Shown here in pieces: positions 151 through 15,915 of a stretch of 15,915 nucleotides of DNA. Source of the DNA: Deltaproteobacteria bacterium RIFOXYA12_FULL_61_11 (GTDB lineage: Bacteria > Bdellovibrionota_F > JAHFAK01 > YA12-FULL-61-11); the NCBI GenBank assembly GCA_001799195.1, contig MGSU01000058.1, positions 1-15,915 of the forward strand, read 5' to 3'. Within the stretch, counting starts at the first letter, position 1. Every line of letters starts with the position of its first letter. Made by a program: the position numbers and the translations under genes. The notes beneath the pieces were generated by a model, which saw only the letters and a list, made by a program, of their open reading frames with translations, did no database searches and was not told the origin of the DNA.

Positions 151-251
151 TTCAACCCCCTCTTCGCTTCCGAAGGCGTTCTTCAAAAACTTTCGTGCGT
201 GAACTGTACCCTGCGTGCCAGGAGAGAGCAAGTAGCACCGTTGCATGCCGC

Positions 252-281
252 TTGCCCTACCCCAGCCAAGACAGGTATGGT
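252..281 (+). promoter_or_regulatory. Possible sigma-70 promoter of the propeller operon
   Basis: TTGCCC (252-257), an 18-base spacer and TATGGT (276-281) each match 4 of 6 consensus bases. Transcription would start near 288, which fits translation from the ATG at 310 and excludes the in-frame ATG at 277. This is a pattern match only. Confidence 0.3.
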
Positions 282-309
282 TGCAAAAACCCCTCGACGA
301 GGCTCGCCC

Positions 310-1887
310 ATGCGATCGTGCCTTTTCCTCTTCGCCGCCTTCCTGTGCTCCTGTTCGAGCGATAAAGTAGAATATTCTTCAGGGCTTGCACCCAACAGCG
401 ACACTCGCCCCGCTGAGGAACAGTACGATAGTTCCGGGGCCGCGAATGCCGCCGCGGACCTCCTGCCCTCCGCCTCGACCCCGAGCCAGATCCTCGAGAA
501 CGAACTCGAAGCGGTACAGGCCGAGGACGTACAGCTCGTGGGCCAGAACTTGGTGTTGCTCGACGCCGGACGTTCCGAGTTGATAGGACTACGTCTCTCA
601 GACCGCTCCCTACACCGCTTGCTCGAACAGGAAGTCACGGCCTTCACCGCGCTGCCGACGACAGACAGGTTGCTGACCATCGACGCCGACGGCAGCGGCA
701 CCCTGCTCGCCCTCGGTTCCGGGAAGACGCTGCGCCTCCCCCTGCGACCGGGTCACATGACCCTCTCGCCTTCCCCAAACGGACGTCATGCCCTGGTCTC
801 GATCGCTCCTGACCAATCAGGGCCGACCTCCGGGGGAGCCTATGGTCTGGGAGAGGTCACCTTGGTGAACGTGGCTTCTACCCTGGCAGCCTCCACAGCA
901 CAATCCTTTGCCCTGACCTCGCCCCCCGAGGAGGTGCGATTCTCTGCCGACGGTACCCGGCTGTACGTGCGTTCGACCCGAGGTATCGAGATCATCGACC
1001 TCACCGCGCCCGGAGGAAGCACACCGATAGCCTTCCGGCCCACACCGAAATTGGCGGCTTCGGTCAGCCGACTGCTCCTCGATCCCGAACACGGTAGAGC
1101 GTTCTGTATCGACGGCAGTTCCGCCCTCCTGGTGATCCAGGACCTCGACGACGGCACCGAACGCCGCCTACCGCTCCCCGCGGTCCCGACCGACCTCGAT
1201 CTCCTCCCGGGGAGCGCTGGGGCCCTGCTCGTGGCCCGTGACGGTGGGGTGTTGATGCGCTGGACCGACGCGACCGACGACGTCCTCGCCCACCGCACCG
1301 GAACCGCTATCGGAGCCGCGCATGTCTTAGAAGGCTCGACCACGATCGTGCTCTCCACCTCGGTCGATCCGGACGGCGCGATCCGCCTGGTCGACCTCGC
1401 AAGACTCTCGGCCGCGAACTTCGACCCGAGCACCGACCTGACCCGCGTGGAGCTCGCGAGGCCGGTCGAAGCGGTGACCCTCGCCCCCGGGGGTTCGACC
1501 ATCGTCCTCTACCATCCGACCTCGGTTGGCAGCGAAGACCCCTACCCGGGCAGCGAACTCGTGACCCTCGTCGCCACCGAGACCGGCCAGACCGTGCCGC
1601 TCCTCCTACCCGAACGCCCCCGCGGGCTGGCCTTCTCCACGGACGGAGCCTATGCCTACCTCGCCCTCGGAACAGCGAGCGTACTGATCGAGGTCAGCCT
1701 CACCGATCTCGTGGCCCGCAGCCTCCCTCTACCCGAAGCCCCCCTCCTCGTCGGAGCCCTCCCGGAAACGCAGGGAGCTTTCACCTTGTTGCACCACCCG
1801 CTGGGCAAGCTGGCCTTCCTCGCTCGCGGCGCAGAACCGACCTTCCTGACCGGCTTCGCCCTCAATTTCAGCGGAGAAGACCAATGA
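310..1887 (+). CDS. Beta-propeller lipoprotein, first of three tandem paralogs
   Basis: 525 residues from the ATG at 310, which has GAGG 7 bases upstream and opens a lipoprotein signal (MRSCLFLFAAFLCSC, Cys15 the likely lipidated residue). Frames reaching further upstream add an Arg-rich, non-signal stretch and were not used. An acidic Ser/Pro/Ala tether of about 60 residues is followed by repeated blade-like motifs such as SPSPNGRHALV (about residue 152), FSADGTRLYV (about 211), LAPGGSTIVLY (about 391) and FSTDGAYAYL (about 442). These are typical of WD40/YVTN-like propellers. The C-terminus carries the motif LGKLAFLA...FLTGFALN, also found in the next protein. The stop overlaps the next start as ATGA. 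It is probably anchored in the outer membrane as a binding or scaffold protein. No catalytic motif was seen, and the function is unknown. Confidence 0.85.
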   Translation: MRSCLFLFAAFLCSCSSDKVEYSSGLAPNSDTRPAEEQYDSSGAANAAADLLPSASTPSQILENELEAVQAEDVQLVGQNLVLLDAGRSELIGLRLSDRSLHRLLEQEVTAFTALPTTDRLLTIDADGSGTLLALGSGKTLRLPLRPGHMTLSPSPNGRHALVSIAPDQSGPTSGGAYGLGEVTLVNVASTLAASTAQSFALTSPPEEVRFSADGTRLYVRSTRGIEIIDLTAPGGSTPIAFRPTPKLAASVSRLLLDPEHGRAFCIDGSSALLVIQDLDDGTERRLPLPAVPTDLDLLPGSAGALLVARDGGVLMRWTDATDDVLAHRTGTAIGAAHVLEGSTTIVLSTSVDPDGAIRLVDLARLSAANFDPSTDLTRVELARPVEAVTLAPGGSTIVLYHPTSVGSEDPYPGSELVTLVATETGQTVPLLLPERPRGLAFSTDGAYAYLALGTASVLIEVSLTDLVARSLPLPEAPLLVGALPETQGAFTLLHHPLGKLAFLARGAEPTFLTGFALNFSGEDQ

Positions 1888-3374
1888 TCACCCACTTGCA
1901 GTCGCTAGGCCTGCTGCTCCTGCTCGGCCTCGCCGGTTGCACCGGGAGCCTCAATCGCGAGGTCAGCGGCGACTCGGACTGGAACTCCGACATGCCGCCG
2001 TCAGAAAGCACCACCCCAGGGGAGAGCACGCTCCCCGATCAACTGGGCGATTTGGCCGCCACCACCGAGGTGGTCGGTTCCGAGGTGGCCTTGTTCGACC
2101 ACGAGCAACGCTATCTCGCCCTCATCTCCCCGGAAGATCTGCAGGTCAGGACTCTGCCTCTGGACCTCAGCCCCACCATATACCGCGGTCTGGGCCCCAC
2201 CGGCGTCATCGCCCTGCTCGACCCGGGAGCAGGCAAGCTCGTCCTGGTCCGCGCCTCCGACCTCTCCCATGCAGAGCTGGACGTCGGACCGAACTACGAC
2301 ACCATCGCAGCAAGTCCAGACGGAAACTACCTGATCTTGTATCACGGGGAAGCGAATGCCTCCTCCCAGGTGCTCAGCCCCCAACAGGTACTCCTGGTCG
2401 AGCCGGTCCCTCACGCTCTGAATACCAGCGCGAAAACCCCGGTAGTCCTGGTCGCGAGCCCTTTGCGCTTGCACTACCACAGCTCGTCCGGAGCAGTGCT
2501 GTTCGAAAGTTCCAAGGGGCTGGAACTAGTACCCCTGAACGCCCCCACCGCCAGGACCTTCCTGCCCTTCCCGGCCGGGTTCGCCGCCGAGGAGCTCTCC
2601 ATCGCCCCGGACCTCTCGCGAGCTATTGGCCGGGACAAAACCGACGGTTCGATCCACCTCTTCGACCTCGGCGCCTCGACGAGGCGAATACTGCCGTCTC
2701 TCATGCCGGCGACCTCGCTGGCCCTGTTGCAGGATCTCGATACCATCTATTATGTTGTCAACGGCGGCCTGCGCCGACACGACTTGCCGGGAGACACCTC
2801 GACCGACCTCGTCCTGCCCCGCGAGACCGGTCGGCTGCTCCCGCTGCCCGAGGTCGGGCTCCTCATCCATCATGATCTGCCCGGAGCCTCCTCCACCATC
2901 CTGGTCCACTCTCCCGCGACGGGCACCGTGGCCGAACTCGCCTTGGACCATCCCCTTATCGATCTGGCCGCGAGCCCCGATGGCAAAAGTCTCGCCTGCA
3001 TCCACCTCGCCCAACCGACAGCCGCCGGAGGCATTGGACCCGGCCTCCTCAGCGTGATCGACCTGGAGTCCTCGAAAATCATCCCGATCATGCTCGACTC
3101 CCCGGTACGGAGCTATCTCTTCAGCGCAGACAGTCGTTACCTCTTCTTCTTGCTGGAGAGTGGTTCCTCGGCCCACGTGGTCGATCTCTCGACCTTCCTG
3201 GTAGAGACCCTCGCCGATACCGCAGACGTAACAGCCCTGGGCCAACTGCCCGGAAACGGTGTCTTCCTGACCCAACGCCATACCCTCGGGAAGATCACCT
3301 TCGTCACCTGGACCGACACCCTCGAACTCCGCACCCTGACCGGCTTCCGTCTCAACGCCTCGGAGGAACCATGA
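1884..3374 (+). CDS. Beta-propeller lipoprotein, second tandem paralog
   Basis: 496 residues. The ATG overlaps the previous stop by 4 bases (ATGA), with GGAGA about 8 bases upstream, so translational coupling is likely. The signal is clear: MITHLQSLGLLLLLGLAGC with lipobox LAGC and Cys19. A hydrophilic tether (about residues 20-60) precedes the propeller. Blade motifs include AASPDGNYLILYHG (about 142), AASPDGKSLACIH (about 362) and FSADSRYLFFLL (about 412). The last 45 residues keep the pattern of the first paralog: TLGKITFVTW then LTGFRLN. Length, order of motifs and tether all match the two neighbours, so the three genes probably arose by duplication. Partner and role are unknown. A surface or periplasmic protein-interaction role is inferred from the fold. 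Confidence 0.87.
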   Translation: MITHLQSLGLLLLLGLAGCTGSLNREVSGDSDWNSDMPPSESTTPGESTLPDQLGDLAATTEVVGSEVALFDHEQRYLALISPEDLQVRTLPLDLSPTIYRGLGPTGVIALLDPGAGKLVLVRASDLSHAELDVGPNYDTIAASPDGNYLILYHGEANASSQVLSPQQVLLVEPVPHALNTSAKTPVVLVASPLRLHYHSSSGAVLFESSKGLELVPLNAPTARTFLPFPAGFAAEELSIAPDLSRAIGRDKTDGSIHLFDLGASTRRILPSLMPATSLALLQDLDTIYYVVNGGLRRHDLPGDTSTDLVLPRETGRLLPLPEVGLLIHHDLPGASSTILVHSPATGTVAELALDHPLIDLAASPDGKSLACIHLAQPTAAGGIGPGLLSVIDLESSKIIPIMLDSPVRSYLFSADSRYLFFLLESGSSAHVVDLSTFLVETLADTADVTALGQLPGNGVFLTQRHTLGKITFVTWTDTLELRTLTGFRLNASEEP

Positions 3375-4846
3375 CGCCCCGAATACTCGTCCTCGCCCTC
3401 ATCGTCCCGCTCCTGGGTTGCCCATTGCCCGAACCCGAGAACCCCACCGTCCTCGCCGTCGGGGACCGCATAGTCTTCGTCGATACTGCCAACGAACGTT
3501 TGGCCCGGCTAGAACCGGCCGACGGCGAACTCGATCGCATCGAGACCGAGCTCGACCCGCGCGCCTTCCTGCCTGCCGCCGAAGCTGAAGCGATGGTCTA
3601 CCTCGACACCCGCGAGCACAAGGAGAAGGTAGGTCCCGAGCGCCTCACCCTGCTCCTCGACGATATTGTGCTCTTGCCCGAGGGAAGTACCAAGCCGCGG
3701 CGGTTGCACGAGCGCGACAACCTCAACCGGTTGCGTGTCGACGCGGCTGGTACGCGCGCCGTAGCCTGGTTCGACCTGCACAACGCGGGCGGAAAAATTC
3801 CCGAACTCGTCACCGGCGCCCAGGTCTTCGATAAGCTGACCATCCTCGACCTTGTGTCCGAACAGGTCTCCAGCCTCCCCGTCGGCTTTGCCCCCCGAGA
3901 GGCCCTGTTCCTGCACCACAGCCCTCGCCTGCTGGCGTTCTCAGAGCGCGAGCTGGTCCTGTGCGATCTCGCCGCTGGGACCGTGCTCGGCCGCAAGCGC
4001 CTGGTCCCCAGCGACAGTAACGGCCTGGTCCTGAACGAACTCTTCCTCGCCGAGGACGATCGCTACCTCCTCTTCCACACCGCGAACAGCACGGATCTCT
4101 ACCTGGTCGACCTCGACCCGGCGAGCGACTTCCGCATCGCCATCATCTCTCTGTCCAAGCTCCCCAGCTCGATCCAGGCCCTCCCACGACCCCACACCTT
4201 CCTGATGCTCTATGCCGCCCCCTTGGGACCTCCCACGCTCTCCCTCCTGGACCTCTCCACCCCCGCGACGGGCCAGCCCGAACCGGGCTTATCAGAGATT
4301 GAGCTCAAAGCCCCTGCCTCCAGTGCCCTACCCGCCGACAACGACACCGTCTACCTGTGGTCGGCCACCGATAGCCGGCTCCAGTCCCTGGACCTCCTCT
4401 CCCACCACGTCCGACTCCTCACCCGACTCTCCGGCACCATCGGCAACGCCCTCCTCCCAACGCCGACGAGTCCGATCGTAGTGCATCTCTCTCGTACCGG
4501 TTCGGGGCTCTCGGGCCAGGCCCTGACCGTGATCGATCCCACGAGTCGCGAGAGCACCGAGGTCACCCTCACTCTTCCCCCCGAGGACCTCTGCACCACG
4601 GCCGGGGGGAGCGTGGCCTTCCTGCAAGGGGATCGGCCCTTCCTCCTCCTGCTAGAACCCGTGACCTTGGCCCTCGACCGGGTCGTCTTCAAACGCAGGC
4701 CCAAGCTCCTCCTCCACCACGAGGCCAGCGACCGGCTGGTCGTCCTGCACCAGGGCGACAACGAAATCACCATCCTCTCGGCCGACGGGCGCGAGGTGGC
4801 CCACCGTCTCTCTCTCTTCCCCACCGGCAGGACCTTCACCCCCTGA
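3371..4846 (+). CDS. Beta-propeller lipoprotein, third tandem paralog (most divergent)
   Basis: 491 residues. The start overlaps the previous stop (ATGA at 3371-3374), and GGAGG at 3363-3367 sits 3 bases before the ATG, closer than usual. The signal [17 protein letters not shown] has lipobox LLGC and Cys17. The tether is much shorter than in the two upstream paralogs: the propeller begins near residue 28 with [12 protein letters not shown], matching the opening strands of the others. Blade-like motifs follow ([13 protein letters not shown] near 123, [10 protein letters not shown] near 226, [10 protein letters not shown] near 392). The shared C-terminal LGK...LTGF.LN motif is replaced by a divergent end, [12 protein letters not shown]. 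It is the last gene of the operon; about 100 bases later rpmB starts under its own promoter. Function unknown. Confidence 0.85.
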
Positions 4847-9359: not shown

Positions 9360-9369
9360 GGTCGGAAAG

Positions 9370-11334
9370 ATGGCGAGATCGCAACTGGTAGTCCTGCTGG
9401 CGGGAGTGCTCGGCCTCAGCACCTCTGCGGCACTGGCCTGTGGTTGCCCAGAAGTATACAGCGATTGTTGGTGCCACCCGGTCTGGTCGGTGGAGCAAGC
9501 TGCCGCCGACCCTTGCAGCAATGTACCCTATCTCTCACCCTACAACGACCGCGGGGTTAACCTGCGCCTGCTCCTGATCGACCAAGGTTTGGCAAGTCTC
9601 CAGCCAAGGCCCATGGATAATTACAATCCATGGGGATGGCCGGACAATCCCGGGATGTGGGTAGAATACGAATACGGAAGAGTTCCGTTTCACGCACATG
9701 CTTTCAATGAATATTTTTTCCATGGTAAGGATATCAATGCTGACACTGCCTTGAAGACCGCATCGGGCTACGAGGGGGGCGAGGGTACGCGTTGGATCAC
9801 CTTGGGCAATGGTCTGACTGCCTACCAAAGAGCACTCGAGGCCGAGCAGAATATTCCGCAGGCTGAGCGCGAGCTGCTCCTCGCTGAGCGACGTAACCTG
9901 GAACAGTATCTTTTCACCCTGCACGAGCAAGATCAAACCACTTCAACCCAGTTCGAGGGTGAATATCACCGGTACCTAGGTACACCAGCCGGAACGTGCT
10001 TTCATACCTACGTTCGTGCTGCGCTTTCCTTTTACCAGGGTCGGTATGGCGAGGCTAAAGACCAATTCGATGGACTCAAAGCGTGTGTGCAGGACTGGGT
10101 TCGGGAAACTGCTCATTACATGGCTGCGCGGACAACCTTGCTGCTCGCCGATGCTTCAGGTTATTCACCGATCATCTGGATAGCCGACGCTGTTGATCAT
10201 GCCTTGGTCCGTGCGGCAAAATTGGAGATCGAGAATTACCTACGTCTCTACCCGAAGGGGCTCTATGCTGCCTCGGCTCGAGGGTTCCTGCGCCGCTGCT
10301 TCGTCTTGAGCAAGGACTACTCGGCACTGATAGACGAGTACCGCTGGTTATTCGAGCACCTCGATTCTCCGCTATGCAACCTTACTGTATTGGGTTTCGC
10401 CAGGGAGATCCTGAGATATTTGCCTACGCATCAGAAACCGGTTTTGCTCCGGTTCTGGCTGCCACTGGCCGTAGACGACCTCTACCGAATGCGGCGCGAT
10501 ACTGCTGAACCGCTGCAATTGGCTGAATTGACAGCACAGCGCGAGGCTTTCGCCGGGCACGAACAGATATACTCCTACTTACTCGCCGCGTACCACCACT
10601 TTATCCTGAGAAATCCGACTGCCACGCTCGAGGCTGTGAAGCTCGTCGAAAGACCGGGTAACGATACAACCACCTTCAGCGGGCACGTACTTCGCGGTCT
10701 AGCCTACGAAGCCAAGGATTACCGTCTGGCCCGGGAATATTGGGAACGGTGGTTACGTGAACCAAGGATGCAACCCTTACAGAGCGAGACACTGCAATTG
10801 GCTTTGGCCTTGAACTATAAAAAAGACAAAGCCCTTGCTCTGGCCTTCCGTGAGAGATCACTCATTGTCGACCCGTTTCTCCGGAACGCGATCATCCATT
10901 TCGAGGCACCAGAAATGCTCCTGAGGGAGATCGTCCGCGCCAAGTACGCCGCGCCGCAAGAGAGACGACGGGCGGCTTACGTATTGTTGACCGAACTCCT
11001 CCTCAAGGGGCATTATCTAGCCTTCGTGCGCGAACATTTACTGCTTCGGCAGCTTCCGGAGCAGCCAGTACAACCGCAGGACGGTGCCGTCGGGGGTTGC
11101 TCGGGAGGGGGCGAAGGTGTTTCCCCGGGAAGCGACAAGATGTCGGTTGGAGGAGTATCCGGCAGCCTGGGGTCGGTGGTCGTCTCTTGGGCAGGGGCAG
11201 CCGCAGTACCCATGGCTGTGGTGGTTCCGACCGACGAAGCCCCCTGTTGCTCTGGCGTGACAATGGGTGCCGCGGGTTCTGACGCGAGGGCCGGTGAGGA
11301 CGGATCGATCGTCCCCTGCGGCCCAGTAGGCTAA
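9370..11334 (+). CDS. Exported helical-repeat (TPR-like) protein of unknown function with Gly-rich tail
   Basis: 654 residues from the ATG at 9370, with GAGG 8 bases upstream overlapping the acyltransferase stop. Residues 1-23 are a signal peptide ending in ALA; Cys24 could be the first mature residue, or lipidated. A Cys cluster follows (CGCP, DCWC: Cys24, 26, 33, 35). From about residue 140 to 570 the sequence looks all-helical with TPR- or Sel1-like character (SFYQGRYGEAKDQF, LEIENYLRLYPKG, LVERPGNDTTTF...LRGLAYEAKDYRLA). The last 80 residues (from about 573) turn abruptly to Gly/Ser/Val/Ala with four Cys. Codons there keep a strong G at position 1, which supports real coding, though a frameshift near 11085 is possible. 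Third-position GC is lower than in the neighbours. I do not recognise the family; a role in envelope assembly or binding is only a guess from fold and export. Confidence 0.75.
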   Translation: MARSQLVVLLAGVLGLSTSAALACGCPEVYSDCWCHPVWSVEQAAADPCSNVPYLSPYNDRGVNLRLLLIDQGLASLQPRPMDNYNPWGWPDNPGMWVEYEYGRVPFHAHAFNEYFFHGKDINADTALKTASGYEGGEGTRWITLGNGLTAYQRALEAEQNIPQAERELLLAERRNLEQYLFTLHEQDQTTSTQFEGEYHRYLGTPAGTCFHTYVRAALSFYQGRYGEAKDQFDGLKACVQDWVRETAHYMAARTTLLLADASGYSPIIWIADAVDHALVRAAKLEIENYLRLYPKGLYAASARGFLRRCFVLSKDYSALIDEYRWLFEHLDSPLCNLTVLGFAREILRYLPTHQKPVLLRFWLPLAVDDLYRMRRDTAEPLQLAELTAQREAFAGHEQIYSYLLAAYHHFILRNPTATLEAVKLVERPGNDTTTFSGHVLRGLAYEAKDYRLAREYWERWLREPRMQPLQSETLQLALALNYKKDKALALAFRERSLIVDPFLRNAIIHFEAPEMLLREIVRAKYAAPQERRRAAYVLLTELLLKGHYLAFVREHLLLRQLPEQPVQPQDGAVGGCSGGGEGVSPGSDKMSVGGVSGSLGSVVVSWAGAAAVPMAVVVPTDEAPCCSGVTMGAAGSDARAGEDGSIVPCGPVG

Positions 11335-11663: not shown

Positions 11664-12149
11664 TCACGGTTCCTCTACAGGGCCAATGCCACCAAAGCCG
11701 GTCGTATCACCCATCCCCCCGGGACCGCCCGGCCAGAGCGCCTCGAGGTCGAGCTTGGCGAGCTGCTCGGCGGTGAGCACCTTGCGCAAGGCGAGCACAA
11801 AGGCAACCCTCCTTTGTAGCAGCTCTTTGTGCAAACCGGAGAGCTGCTCGACCAGGGCATCGACCTTCGCCTGGGCCATCGTCGGCGAGGTCAGGGCATC
11901 GCGCAGGGCCAACCTGGTGCTCGAGACGCGGGTCCGCAGTTCGAGCATGGTCGCCTGGTGGGTTTGACGCAACCCGGTCAAGGCCGTGACTTGCTCTGGG
12001 GTCAGGTCGAGGTCCTTGAACAGCATAGCCCGGCGCGGGCCACCCCGGCCTTCACCGAACCCTCTGCCATCATTCTTCCCCATCTTGCCCCTGGCCTCGA
12101 GTGGCAAGGCGAAGATCAACGCGAAGAGTCCCACAACGATCGTCTTCAT
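11664..12149 (-). CDS. Spy/CpxP/CnrX-like periplasmic LTXXQ protein
   Basis: 161 residues from the ATG at 12149, with GGGAGG 6 bases upstream; the in-frame ATG 14 codons earlier lacks a signal and was rejected. Residues 1-19 are a signal peptide (MKTIVVGLFALIFALPLEA). A Gly/Arg-rich segment (20-40) precedes two LTXXQ motifs, LTPEQ at 49-53 and LTAEQ at 125-129. They are separated by about 70 residues of amphipathic helix, the pattern of Spy, CpxP and the metal sensors CnrX/ZraP. The C-terminus is a Gly/Pro-rich tail. It is the third gene of the ECF operon, 38 bases after the anti-sigma candidate. It probably acts in the periplasm as a chaperone or sensor feeding the sigma/anti-sigma pair. There is no His/Met cluster of the CnrX type, so metal sensing is uncertain. 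Confidence 0.82.
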   Translation of the reverse strand: MKTIVVGLFALIFALPLEARGKMGKNDGRGFGEGRGGPRRAMLFKDLDLTPEQVTALTGLRQTHQATMLELRTRVSSTRLALRDALTSPTMAQAKVDALVEQLSGLHKELLQRRVAFVLALRKVLTAEQLAKLDLEALWPGGPGGMGDTTGFGGIGPVEEP

Positions 12150-12187
12150 GGCAAACCTCCCTTCCTTTGGTGCCTCGGCACGTGTGG

Positions 12188-12592
12188 TCACAAAGCCTCA
12201 TAGAAACCGAGGAAACGTTCGAGCGGATCCACGGCGTCCAGAGCGTCTGCTTCTTCTTCAAGAGGGAATTCGTCGAGTCCGGTCGCAGCTCCGAGCACGA
12301 GCAACATCTCGAGCACGGTTTCGTCCTGGACTCTCAGGGCGACCTCGGCAACCGCGTTCGACGGTGGTTCGGCCACCCGAACTCCTCGCTCGCCTTCGCT
12401 CCTCAGGACGGCGACGAAGGCCAGGACCAGGACGGCCGCTGCCAGGCCAAAACCCAGCGCGAACCGATAACGGGGAGCCGGCACCCGCCTCGCTTCCTCC
12501 AGACGAGCCCAGAGCTTCGCTCCCCCGTTCCAGGTCGCCTGCACCTCTTCGCGAGATTGTCGCAACAATGCTTCCAACTCACGCTCGTCCAT
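12188..12592 (-). CDS. Single-pass membrane protein, probable anti-sigma factor
   Basis: 134 residues. The ATG at 12592 has GAGGAG 7 bases upstream and lies inside the end of the ECF sigma gene (14-base overlap), so the two are translationally coupled. Residues 1-42 are charged and helical, suited to hold the sigma factor in the cytoplasm. One membrane helix spans about 44-63 (ALGFGLAAAVLVLAFVAVL). The C-terminal 70 residues are periplasmic and very acidic near the end (DEFPLEEEADALDAVD). No zinc HxxxCxxC motif of the ZAS type is present, so it would resemble short CnrY-like anti-sigmas rather than RsrA/ChrR. The call rests on position, topology and size, not on sequence similarity. Confidence 0.65.
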   Translation of the reverse strand: MDERELEALLRQSREEVQATWNGGAKLWARLEEARRVPAPRYRFALGFGLAAAVLVLAFVAVLRSEGERGVRVAEPPSNAVAEVALRVQDETVLEMLLVLGAATGLDEFPLEEEADALDAVDPLERFLGFYEAL

Positions 12593-13100
12593 GCTCAGGC
12601 TCCTCTTCGAGGTTCCTCCGTTGTCGTACTCGCTCCAGCGCCCGGTGCAGCCGCACCTTCAAGGCGGTGACGGATATCCCCGTGAGCTCGGCGATTTCCT
12701 GGTACTCCAGTTCTTCCACATACTTGAGGACGATCAAGACCCGGGTCGTCGCATCGAAGGTGGCCAGGACCTCTCGGGCCAAGAGCGTGGTCTCACCGGG
12801 AAACCCGCGTTCGCCGGCCCGCTCGACTTCTCGTTGGTCTTTCCAGCGAGCGAGCTTGGCCAGGGAACGCGCGAAGCGTCGCTTCCGGTCGATACAGCGA
12901 TTGACGGCGACCCGGTACAACCACGCCTTCAATTGCAGGTCGAGGGTGAGAGAACCCCGCCGTTCGGCGTACCGAAGAAAAACTTCTTGGGTCAGGTCTT
13001 CCGCGTCCGAACGGTCCCCGACGCAGTGCCAAGCCAGGTTGAAGACCGCCCGGTGGTGTTCGAGGAAGGCCTCCTCGAGTGTCGGCAACCTCTCGGTCAT
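12579..13100 (-). CDS. ECF-family RNA polymerase sigma factor
   Basis: 173 residues, the usual ECF length. Region 2 (about 10-75) contains the -10-binding and core-binding helices, with the signature DAEDLTQEVFLR at 32-43 and LKAWLYRVAVNRCIDRKRR at 57-75. Region 4 (about 108-162) carries the helix-turn-helix YQEIAELTGISVTALKVRLHRA for the -35 element at about 133-154. No regions 1 or 3 are present, as expected for ECFs. The ATG at 13100 has AGG 10 bases and GAG about 5 bases upstream. It heads a three-gene operon with a one-TM anti-sigma candidate and a periplasmic LTXXQ protein. This layout implies activation by an envelope signal, possibly metal or misfolded protein. A dyad at 13153-13177 lies in its upstream region and may be a control site. 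Confidence 0.94.
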   Translation of the reverse strand: MTERLPTLEEAFLEHHRAVFNLAWHCVGDRSDAEDLTQEVFLRYAERRGSLTLDLQLKAWLYRVAVNRCIDRKRRFARSLAKLARWKDQREVERAGERGFPGETTLLAREVLATFDATTRVLIVLKYVEELEYQEIAELTGISVTALKVRLHRALERVRQRRNLEEEPEHGRA

Positions 13101-14233: not shown

Positions 14234-15355
14234 TCAGCTTCCGCTTTTCGCGGATTCCCTGGCCTTCTTGATCCGGCACACGGTCAGTTGCTCGGACAAG
14301 GCAGCAGCCTTCTTCCTGAGTTCGCGAATCTCGCGTTTAATTGCCTCGGGAGTGTTGCCGGGGAGGGAGTCGATCTCAGCCAAGAGTTTTTCCTTGTCCG
14401 CTGGAGAACCATCGAAAATGTCGATCAAGCCAATGGCCGCCGCGTACTTGGGCTCCAACCAGACATCATCTTCACCGAAGAACTCGAGCAAGGTCTCGGC
14501 CGAGAGGTCGGTATACGAGGCGATCAATTTGTAAAATTCGTCCAGCCAGTCTTCCAAGGTGCTGATACTCCCGAGGATGTCCGAGGTCTTCCCCTGGAGG
14601 CCATAGGCCGCCGAGTGCAGCATGATCCTGCTCAGGGGTTTTGCCTCGCGCAACCCCTTGCTGCCTGCCGCCAGAATGGCCGCTCCCATGCTCGCGCATT
14701 GACCGACGCACACGGTCTTGATCAGCACCCCCTGTTTCTGCAGGTCATGCATCTTGTTAATGAGGCGCATCCCGTCCTGGATACTGCCACCAGGGGAGTC
14801 GATCTCCAGAGTCATGATCGGGGCGAGCATGTACTGAGGTTGGCCACAATCCCCATCTTGCATAGTGAGCTTTACCTTGCCCACTGGAAATTCGTACTCG
14901 GGAGGTGCTCCTAACTCATTCATCTTCTTTGCGGTAAGATGAGCGATCGCCGTTTGTTGCTGGGCCTCGTCCAATTTCTTCCCCTCGGCCTCGAGTTTGG
15001 GTAACAGTGCCTGCAATTCGGCTTGGGCCGCGCGCGCAGCACGTTGCTCTTGCATTCCGTATTGTTGGATGGCCTTGAAGGTTCTCTTGAACATCTCCTG
15101 GTGGGCGGTCATGTAGGCGAGCACCAGATCAACGCTCTCCTTGGTCACCACGTCATCCAACTTGACCAGACCCTGGTTTGCCTCCGTCATGGCGGCCATT
15201 TCGAGAATCTGGACCATGGTCGGCACGGGGGAGTCCAACAACGATGCTCCGGGTTGGGCCGTGGTTTTGTCATCGGCACTCGCCGCGACAATCGACAAGA
15301 GAAAACACCAAGAACCGATCAGCAGCATGCTCGAGCGAGTGGGGTGTATCATCAT
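14234..15355 (-). CDS. Secreted ClpP-like serine protease
   Basis: 373 residues from the ATG at 15355, which has GGAG 7 bases upstream; an in-frame ATG 21 codons earlier would bury the signal peptide and is rejected. Residues 1-27 form a signal peptide (MLLIGSWCFLLSIVAASA, cut before DDKT). Residues 30-150 are helical with a coiled-coil stretch (about 103-145). The ClpP fold follows. IDSPGGSIQDG (about 186-196) is the oxyanion loop. GQCASMGAA carries nucleophile Ser222, IMLHSAAYG has His247, and EDDVW has Asp296. Ser-His spacing 25 and His-Asp spacing 49 equal those of E. coli ClpP. The Pro after the His (HQP) is lost. The C-terminus (about 320-373) is a charged helix. No ATPase partner is nearby and export would separate it from ClpX/ClpA, so ATP-independent cleavage in the periplasm is inferred. 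Confidence 0.88.
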   Translation of the reverse strand: MMIHPTRSSMLLIGSWCFLLSIVAASADDKTTAQPGASLLDSPVPTMVQILEMAAMTEANQGLVKLDDVVTKESVDLVLAYMTAHQEMFKRTFKAIQQYGMQEQRAARAAQAELQALLPKLEAEGKKLDEAQQQTAIAHLTAKKMNELGAPPEYEFPVGKVKLTMQDGDCGQPQYMLAPIMTLEIDSPGGSIQDGMRLINKMHDLQKQGVLIKTVCVGQCASMGAAILAAGSKGLREAKPLSRIMLHSAAYGLQGKTSDILGSISTLEDWLDEFYKLIASYTDLSAETLLEFFGEDDVWLEPKYAAAIGLIDIFDGSPADKEKLLAEIDSLPGNTPEAIKREIRELRKKAAALSEQLTVCRIKKARESAKSGS

Positions 15356-15528: not shown

Positions 15529-15915
15529 TCAAAGCTTTCGCGCAGTGCGAGCAGCCTCGTCGAGCAGCTCCCGACCGTCCAAATCATACTCTCCCTGCAC
15601 GTCGAGCGGGAAGTCGAGCAAGCCGAGCGGGGTCTCGGCCCAGAAACGCCCCCAGATACGGTACTCGACGGTGTCGAAGAGCAGGAAGCGGAGGCTGGAG
15701 AGGAGGGGCAAGGTCACCAGGAGCGGGATGACCACGGTGGTGCCGGAGAGAAGTTCGATCCGGCGCTCGAGCGTTTCCTCTTTGGATTCCGTACCTTCAA
15801 CCTCGATCTGATAGTGGATCTTCTCGATATGGGCATCTCGGTCGTCGAGGTTGTGGACCTCGACCTCGCTCTGCAGAGTAACCTCGAGCAGCTTCACCTC
15901 GAGGATCCGCACGCC
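15529..15915 (-). CDS. LEA14/WHy-domain (LEA type 2) protein, N-terminus cut by window edge
   Basis: The minus-strand frame is open from the window edge and gives 129 residues without its start; the GTG at 15912 is more likely an internal Val than the start. The sequence fits the WHy/LEA14 domain, a beta-sandwich. ILEVKLLEVTLQSEVEVHNL matches the pattern of the first strands (SxVxVxNPN, here HNLDDRD). IHYQIEVEG is the paired strand. IELLSGTTVVIPLLVTLPLL is the Gly-turn plus IPV strand. VEYRIWGRFWAETPLG to YDLDG closes the sheet. Bacterial members are usually lipoproteins with a short N-terminal signal, so roughly 30-40 residues are probably missing. Roles proposed for the family are desiccation or stress tolerance and protein or lipid binding; the precise role here is unknown. 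A near-palindrome lies about 65 bases after the stop. Confidence 0.7.
   Translation of the reverse strand, partial: GVRILEVKLLEVTLQSEVEVHNLDDRDAHIEKIHYQIEVEGTESKEETLERRIELLSGTTVVIPLLVTLPLLSSLRFLLFDTVEYRIWGRFWAETPLGLLDFPLDVQGEYDLDGRELLDEAARTARKL

Follow-up and report, generated by a model that had tools for sequence, protein, structure and literature searches.

A ClpP-family protein with a predicted signal peptide and an altered unfoldase dock: a candidate ATP-independent protease outside the cytoplasm

Introduction

ClpP is a self-compartmentalised, tetradecameric protease that works in the cytoplasm and is powered by ATP through an AAA+ partner. The locus described here raises the question of how a ClpP-like protein would function when it is headed by a signal peptide. 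It lies in a stretch of 15,915 nucleotides from Deltaproteobacteria bacterium RIFOXYA12_FULL_61_11 (contig MGSU01000058.1), which was analysed as a whole and is called the window below. An earlier note had read a ClpP-type protease from this DNA, and its claims are taken up with the results that bear on them.

Results

The gene and its family

The ClpP-like gene is on the minus strand, a corrected strand assignment, and extends from 15355 to 14237, with its ATG at 15355, its last codon at 14237 and the stop codon at 14236-14234. The open frame (14234..15355, minus strand) encodes a putatively exported ClpP-family protein of 373 amino acids, and a strong Shine-Dalgarno sequence, AGGAGGAG (15370-15363, minus strand), can be read directly 7 nt ahead of the ATGATG. 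Assignment to ClpP was weighed against an inactive crotonase-fold family, and it was the former that was upheld, by the Pfam match, by the matches in the PDB and by the fold that is described below. In the Pfam scan, residues 182-312 matched CLP_protease (PF00574) with an E-value of 5.8e-24 and a score of 85.4 bits (cut-off 20.2), and in the PDB sequence comparison the closest solved structures were all ClpP (top E 1.5e-16). The equivalog model of ClpP proper, TIGR00493, gave 72.9 bits, which is below its cut-off of 308.6. Judged by its sequence, the protein is a ClpP-family variant whose changes form a coherent set, rather than a new kind of enzyme.

A second copy of 289 amino acids was found in the same genome on another contig (C235); it is 42% identical over residues 178-366 and scores 78.7 bits with PF00574. 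It has a predicted signal peptide of its own and the same C-terminal extension, and by eye it also keeps a remnant of the ClpP sequence that precedes strand 1 (SRRLARGVVTF versus SRLLKERVIF). In the tree, the window protein and the second copy group together with 100/99 support, on a long branch and apart from 78 other ClpPs; the gene is therefore no isolated artefact. On a different contig, the host genome additionally contains an ordinary clpP with clpX directly downstream, so that the ATP-dependent job is already filled, and it also has an SppA-like gene and an NfeD-type ClpP-fold gene, both of them separate. Just upstream of the second copy on C235 (L036:2890-3261, plus strand), a small gene encodes a lipoprotein-like product in which units rich in Lys and Cys, of the KCxKCxC type, are repeated, and just downstream of it, on the other strand, is a hemerythrin-domain gene.

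Several neighboring genes in the window were also recorded. On the 5' side of the ClpP-like gene, a gene of 127 amino acids (15529-15912, minus strand), with a sub-threshold match to LEA_2, ends at 15529 and leaves a gap of 173 nt; its start may fall past the end of the window. Downstream of the ClpP-like gene and on the opposite strand is a BrkB/YihY-type gene, beyond which, some 1.1 kb away from the ClpP-like gene and on its strand, lies a likely envelope-stress set (11664-13100, minus strand). In this set, the gene of an ECF sigma factor (12579-13100) overlaps that of a small protein (12188-12592) that resembles an anti-sigma factor and has a single hydrophobic stretch; the third member, of the Spy/CpxP/LTXXQ type, starts near 12134 and ends at 11664. 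Elsewhere, three successive genes on the plus strand (199-4846), each of roughly 490-560 amino acids with a lipoprotein-like N-terminus and apparent beta-propeller repeats, have overlapping stop and start codons and are possibly a tandem family, and a predicted secreted protein of 657 amino acids with a Cys-rich start (9361-11331, plus strand) had no match in Pfam.

The signal peptide

The N-terminus of the ClpP-like protein, MMIHPTRSSMLLIGSWCFLLSIVAASA followed by DDK, has the sequence of a Sec-type signal peptide, comprising residues 1-27 (15275..15355, minus strand) with a predicted cut between ASA and DDK. Besides direct reading, a crude rule was applied, in which the longest uncharged N-terminal stretch with a mean hydropathy of at least 1.8 had to be followed by a small-x-Ala site. 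This hydrophobic stretch measured 19 residues in the window protein and 17 in the second copy, whereas 130 of 131 ordinary ClpP frames scored 0 and the remaining one scored 9, so that none reached 10 from any start codon. The earlier note had indeed claimed a signal peptide, and the claim is borne out by the 19-residue core with its A-x-A site, by its counterpart in the second copy and by the absence of any such feature from the 131 ordinary frames. By inspection, the axial-loop N-terminus of ClpP (the GER/SRLL motif) is absent from the protein, and the Sec signal peptide would take its place.

The active site

Ser222, at the nucleophile position within QCASMGA (14690..14692, minus strand), and His247, which begins an HSA motif in place of HQP (14609..14617, minus strand), align with the Ser and His of ClpP at a spacing of 25, in agreement with the active site that had been proposed before. 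The third residue of that proposal, Asp296, needs revision. It is indeed located 49 residues past His247, yet the alignment to ClpP needs a one-residue insertion ahead of it, and in the alignment to 24 ClpPs the catalytic Asp coincides with Asp297 (D-V-W-L matched to D-R-F-L). In the pair Asp296-Asp297 (14465..14470, minus strand), Asp296 would then occupy the position at which the Arg of the oligomerization sensor is expected, and Asp297, the probable catalytic Asp, is more likely than Asp296 to be the third triad residue. With this assignment, the alignment places a Ser-His-Asp triad (S222, H247, D297) at the ClpP positions, and the second copy shares these three positions with the window protein, along with the SPGG and ASMGA motifs around them.

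It is to be noted that two cysteines, Cys216 (14708-14710) and Cys220 (14696-14698), both on the minus strand, precede Ser222 and are kept in the second copy. Cys is common in ClpP at the first of these positions and occurs in 6 of 66 cellular ClpPs at the second; the two might serve a redox function outside the cytoplasm.

Changes in the unfoldase dock and the ring lock

In the E. coli precursor, Tyr76 and Leu128 (mature Tyr62 and Leu114) belong to the H site (PMC6853987), and both positions were compared with 101 ordinary ClpPs. The Tyr position, which is Tyr or Phe in all 101, is Glu184 in the window protein (14804..14806, minus strand) and Ala in the second copy, while at the Leu position, where 100 have Leu and one has Phe, the window protein has Lys239 (14639..14641, minus strand) and the second copy has His. 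The hydrophobic cleft for the IGF loops of ClpX and ClpA would be turned polar by these replacements (Tyr62 to Glu, Leu114 to Lys), so that no unfoldase is expected to dock, a conclusion for which homology argues strongly. Action without ATP, as the earlier note had it, fits the loss of this docking site. Replacement of the same Tyr by Ala is reported to activate ClpP in the SaClpP Y63A mutant (PMC6853987), which has been called constitutively active (PMC9035409).

The contacts between rings were similarly affected. Of 110 proteins, 108 have Gln directly after the catalytic His, and the two that do not are the window protein (HSA) and its paralogue, the second copy (HAA), which confirms the change of HQP to HSA that had been noticed earlier. 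The QXT motif reads KTS in the window protein, where Lys256 (14588..14590, minus strand) replaces its Gln; this position is Gln in most ClpPs and Lys in 3 of the cellular set (n=70), the window protein and the second copy among them. The Arg that precedes the catalytic Asp, i.e., the oligomerization sensor, is nearly universal in ClpPs and is Asp in both copies. The QXT motif, the Arg of the sensor and the HQP Gln are reported to work as a single network between the rings, by which the double ring is stabilised in its active form (PMC9035409). Since all three have been rewritten here, double-ring assembly of the ClpP type cannot be assumed. One may speculate that Lys256 and Asp296 (Gln-to-Lys, Arg-to-Asp) could make a new charge pair. 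Overall, the H-site dock and the ring-ring lock are altered together in both copies, while the positions of the triad are retained. What appears new here, on alignment, is that the two copies have lost an identical set of features (the H-site Tyr and Leu, the HQP Gln and the sensor Arg) that hardly vary among the 101-110 ordinary ClpPs.

The fold, the inserted arm and the C-terminal helix

Two AlphaFold models were built, both from shallow alignments. For the first, an alignment of 24 phage-borne ClpPs was trimmed to the start of strand 2, so that residues 1-178 were modelled unhinted. The ClpP core, residues 179-316 (14408..14821, minus strand), took the ClpP fold in this model with a pLDDT of mostly 80-96; Foldseek matched it to ClpP with an E-value of 1.7e-12, and comparison with solved ClpP gave a VIA Z of 20.4 over 141 residues. 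In both models, residues 92-178 (14822..15082, minus strand) formed an arm that consists of an antiparallel helical hairpin, with helices 72-123 and 130-147 at a pLDDT of about 83-95, and a return loop of low confidence (153-176, mostly below 50).

Strand 1 and helix A of ClpP, which were not recovered at 62-91 in the unhinted model, probably correspond to residues 62-91 (15083..15172, minus strand). A profile of this region, built from 68 ClpPs and scanned over the first 180 residues, scored best at residues 62-89, 13 bits above the next position, a score that about 5% of shuffles equalled. The same register was obtained from the E-INS-i alignment and from ClpP N-terminal fragments aligned alone. 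When it was written into the alignment, the resulting hinted model had a strand at 62-66, a pLDDT of 82-92 for residues 61-80 and a pTM of 0.58 (0.48 in the unhinted model); it matched 6mx2, the Clostridium difficile ClpP1, with a Z of 26.4 and an rmsd of 1.5 over 165 residues, and solved ClpP overall with Z 26.4-26.7 over 165-174 residues. As this second model was hinted, it counts as support for the register and not as proof. MAFFT in automatic mode placed helix A at 124-141 or 157-178, a register that shifted with the rows of the alignment, and 62-91 was preferred on the evidence of the profile, the E-INS-i alignment and the model.

These results modify the earlier claim of a long helical N-terminal domain, in that a helical hairpin was indeed modelled, but its placement is probably inside the ClpP fold. 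According to the profile, the E-INS-i alignment and the hinted model, the helical region is probably a coiled-coil insertion between helix A and strand 2, beside the unfoldase dock, in which case helix A continues into the 52-residue helix. Leu62-Ala66 and Tyr74/Tyr76 of the E. coli ClpP precursor, which flank the connection between helix A and strand 2, both line the H site (PMC6853987); thus, the arm should leave the fold at the place where ATPases normally dock. The charged C-terminal helix of the earlier note was found at residues 336-371 in both models, within an extension (14237..14404, minus strand) that aligns with that of the second copy.

Distribution

A scan of GTDB 220 with profile-derived peptides retrieved no close relative, and a single-protein scan of IMG/VR retrieved no relative; a profile scan of IMG/VR returned one remote match, in a phage locus adjoining a portal-like gene. 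A DNA pattern, ASM[GA] plus His then [AST][AG], produced 24 matches in GTDB 220, all by chance and outside ClpP frames, and a slightly narrower form produced 0 in IMG/VR. The narrower pattern recovers both copies and 0 ordinary ClpPs of the comparison set, and relatives without the motif would be missed by it. Profile search of 386 genomes placed only ordinary ClpPs near the top, at 83 bits or less versus 456 for the second copy. The PF00574 matches listed for 126 genomes were ordinary ClpPs at about 190 bits or more, apart from a few that fell below 120; the atypical ones that were inspected by sequence had no clear signal peptide. The host phylum is represented by two genomes in the collection, the other of which has only an ordinary ClpP by profile. 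Judging from these scans, which depend on exact motif matches and from which close relatives of the host may be missing, the protein is likely to be rare. No secreted, periplasmic or extracellular ClpP was found in the open-access literature, subscription journals being outside the search, and in a 2008 survey 118 of 121 S14 proteins were single-domain, the other three being fused to NfeD (PMC2605481).

Discussion

Proposed function and its alternatives

We consider the protein to be an exported member of the ClpP family (PF00574, MEROPS S14) that would act beyond the cytoplasm as a serine protease independent of ATP, and assign this reading a probability of roughly 0.6. It is favoured by the loss of dock and lock in both copies, with the triad kept. 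In this proposal, the site formed by Ser222, His247 and Asp297 would be retained for catalysis, and the coiled-coil arm beside the old cleft would probably take over control of access or capture of substrates. The pore may be opened in a manner analogous to that of the constitutively active SaClpP Y63A, and the subunits may assemble as a single ring, as smaller oligomers or as a double ring with other contacts, perhaps together with the second copy. A more specific version would be a periplasmic ClpP barrel of paired paralogous subunits, with the arms in place of the AAA+ unfoldase, a pore held open through the altered H-site Tyr, and rings joined by a new contact of Lys256 with Asp296, in a charge swap relative to the Gln and Arg of ClpP; we regard it as doubtful in this full form.

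Comparison with ClpP of E. coli and S. aureus places the protein in context. The core fold, SPGG/ASMGA and the Ser-His-Asp positions are the same, and the closest solved structures are those of ClpP. The window protein differs in its signal peptide, in the loss of the H-site Tyr and Leu, of HQP, QXT and the sensor Arg, and of the GER/SRLL axial loop, in an arm of about 80 residues before strand 2, in the C-terminal helix, and in that its gene does not adjoin clpX. The Tyr that is changed in SaClpP Y63A and EcClpP Y76A (PMC6853987, PMC9035409) is the same one, and the Ala of the second copy is natural, whereas Y63A and Y76A are laboratory mutants of cytoplasmic ClpP that otherwise retain the ClpP network. 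Listeria ClpP2 likewise has a non-conserved C-terminal extension, but there the tail lies over an H site that is still intact and modulates the binding of ClpX (PMC9035409), whereas the H site of the window protein is gone.

The main rival, which we find unlikely, is an exported but catalytically silent relative of ClpP that serves as a structural ring partner, a chaperone or an inhibitor. HQP, QXT and the sensor Arg, which support the geometry of the triad in ClpP, have all been lost, and two copies per genome would permit a mixed ring. With the Gln and Pro of HQP gone and a sensor network that normally shapes the triad rewritten, activity could be reduced or lost. Some ClpP rings do include subunits without a catalytic triad, and silent subunits often lose a triad residue, whereas both copies here keep the triad positions with their SPGG and ASMGA surroundings.

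Less likely again is a membrane-anchored or cytoplasmic variant of ClpP, with an N-terminal anchor that stays uncleaved or a start codon further in. Such a variant would be compatible with a signal peptide that is recognised by sequence rules only, but the strong ribosome-binding site stands at the very ATG that gives the signal peptide, the A-S-A cut site is present, and the second copy has a signal peptide independently; a cytoplasmic ClpP role would in any case be unlikely with the ATPase dock lost.

An SppA (S49) or NfeD/1510-N type of membrane-associated peptidase, which would clear membrane or signal-peptide fragments by means of a Ser-Lys dyad, appears improbable. Both types are known extracytoplasmic proteases of the ClpP fold, and Lys256 is kept in both copies at a position that is near the active site in ClpP. 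SppA is an extracytoplasmic serine protease of this fold that works without ATP, but the protein scored 16.7 with the SppA model TIGR00706, far below the cut-off of 155.45, and it has the ClpP triad. The 1510-N protease of Pyrococcus horikoshii is also of the ClpP-type fold, membrane-bound and ATP-independent, but it uses Ser97-Lys138 (PMC3795559), whereas the window protein has Ser-His-Asp, no NfeD domain in the Pfam scan, and Ser at residue 263, i.e., no Lys 41 residues past its Ser as in 1510-N (PMC3795559). The separate SppA-like and NfeD-type genes of the host also argue against such a role.

Finally, an assembly or annotation artefact, conceivable in a metagenome-derived draft of 342 contigs that is 87% complete and has one other genome of its phylum in the collection, is hardly credible with intact frames on two separate contigs and a codon-position GC like that of the genome's own clpP.

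Significance

If an exported, ATP-independent protease is indeed what the gene encodes, it would be a natural experiment on what ClpP needs in order to work without ATP, and it would be a source of unfoldase-free enzymes of the ClpP type. The natural Ala of the second copy at the H-site Tyr is the very residue that makes S. aureus ClpP constitutively active, which would make the idea directly testable.
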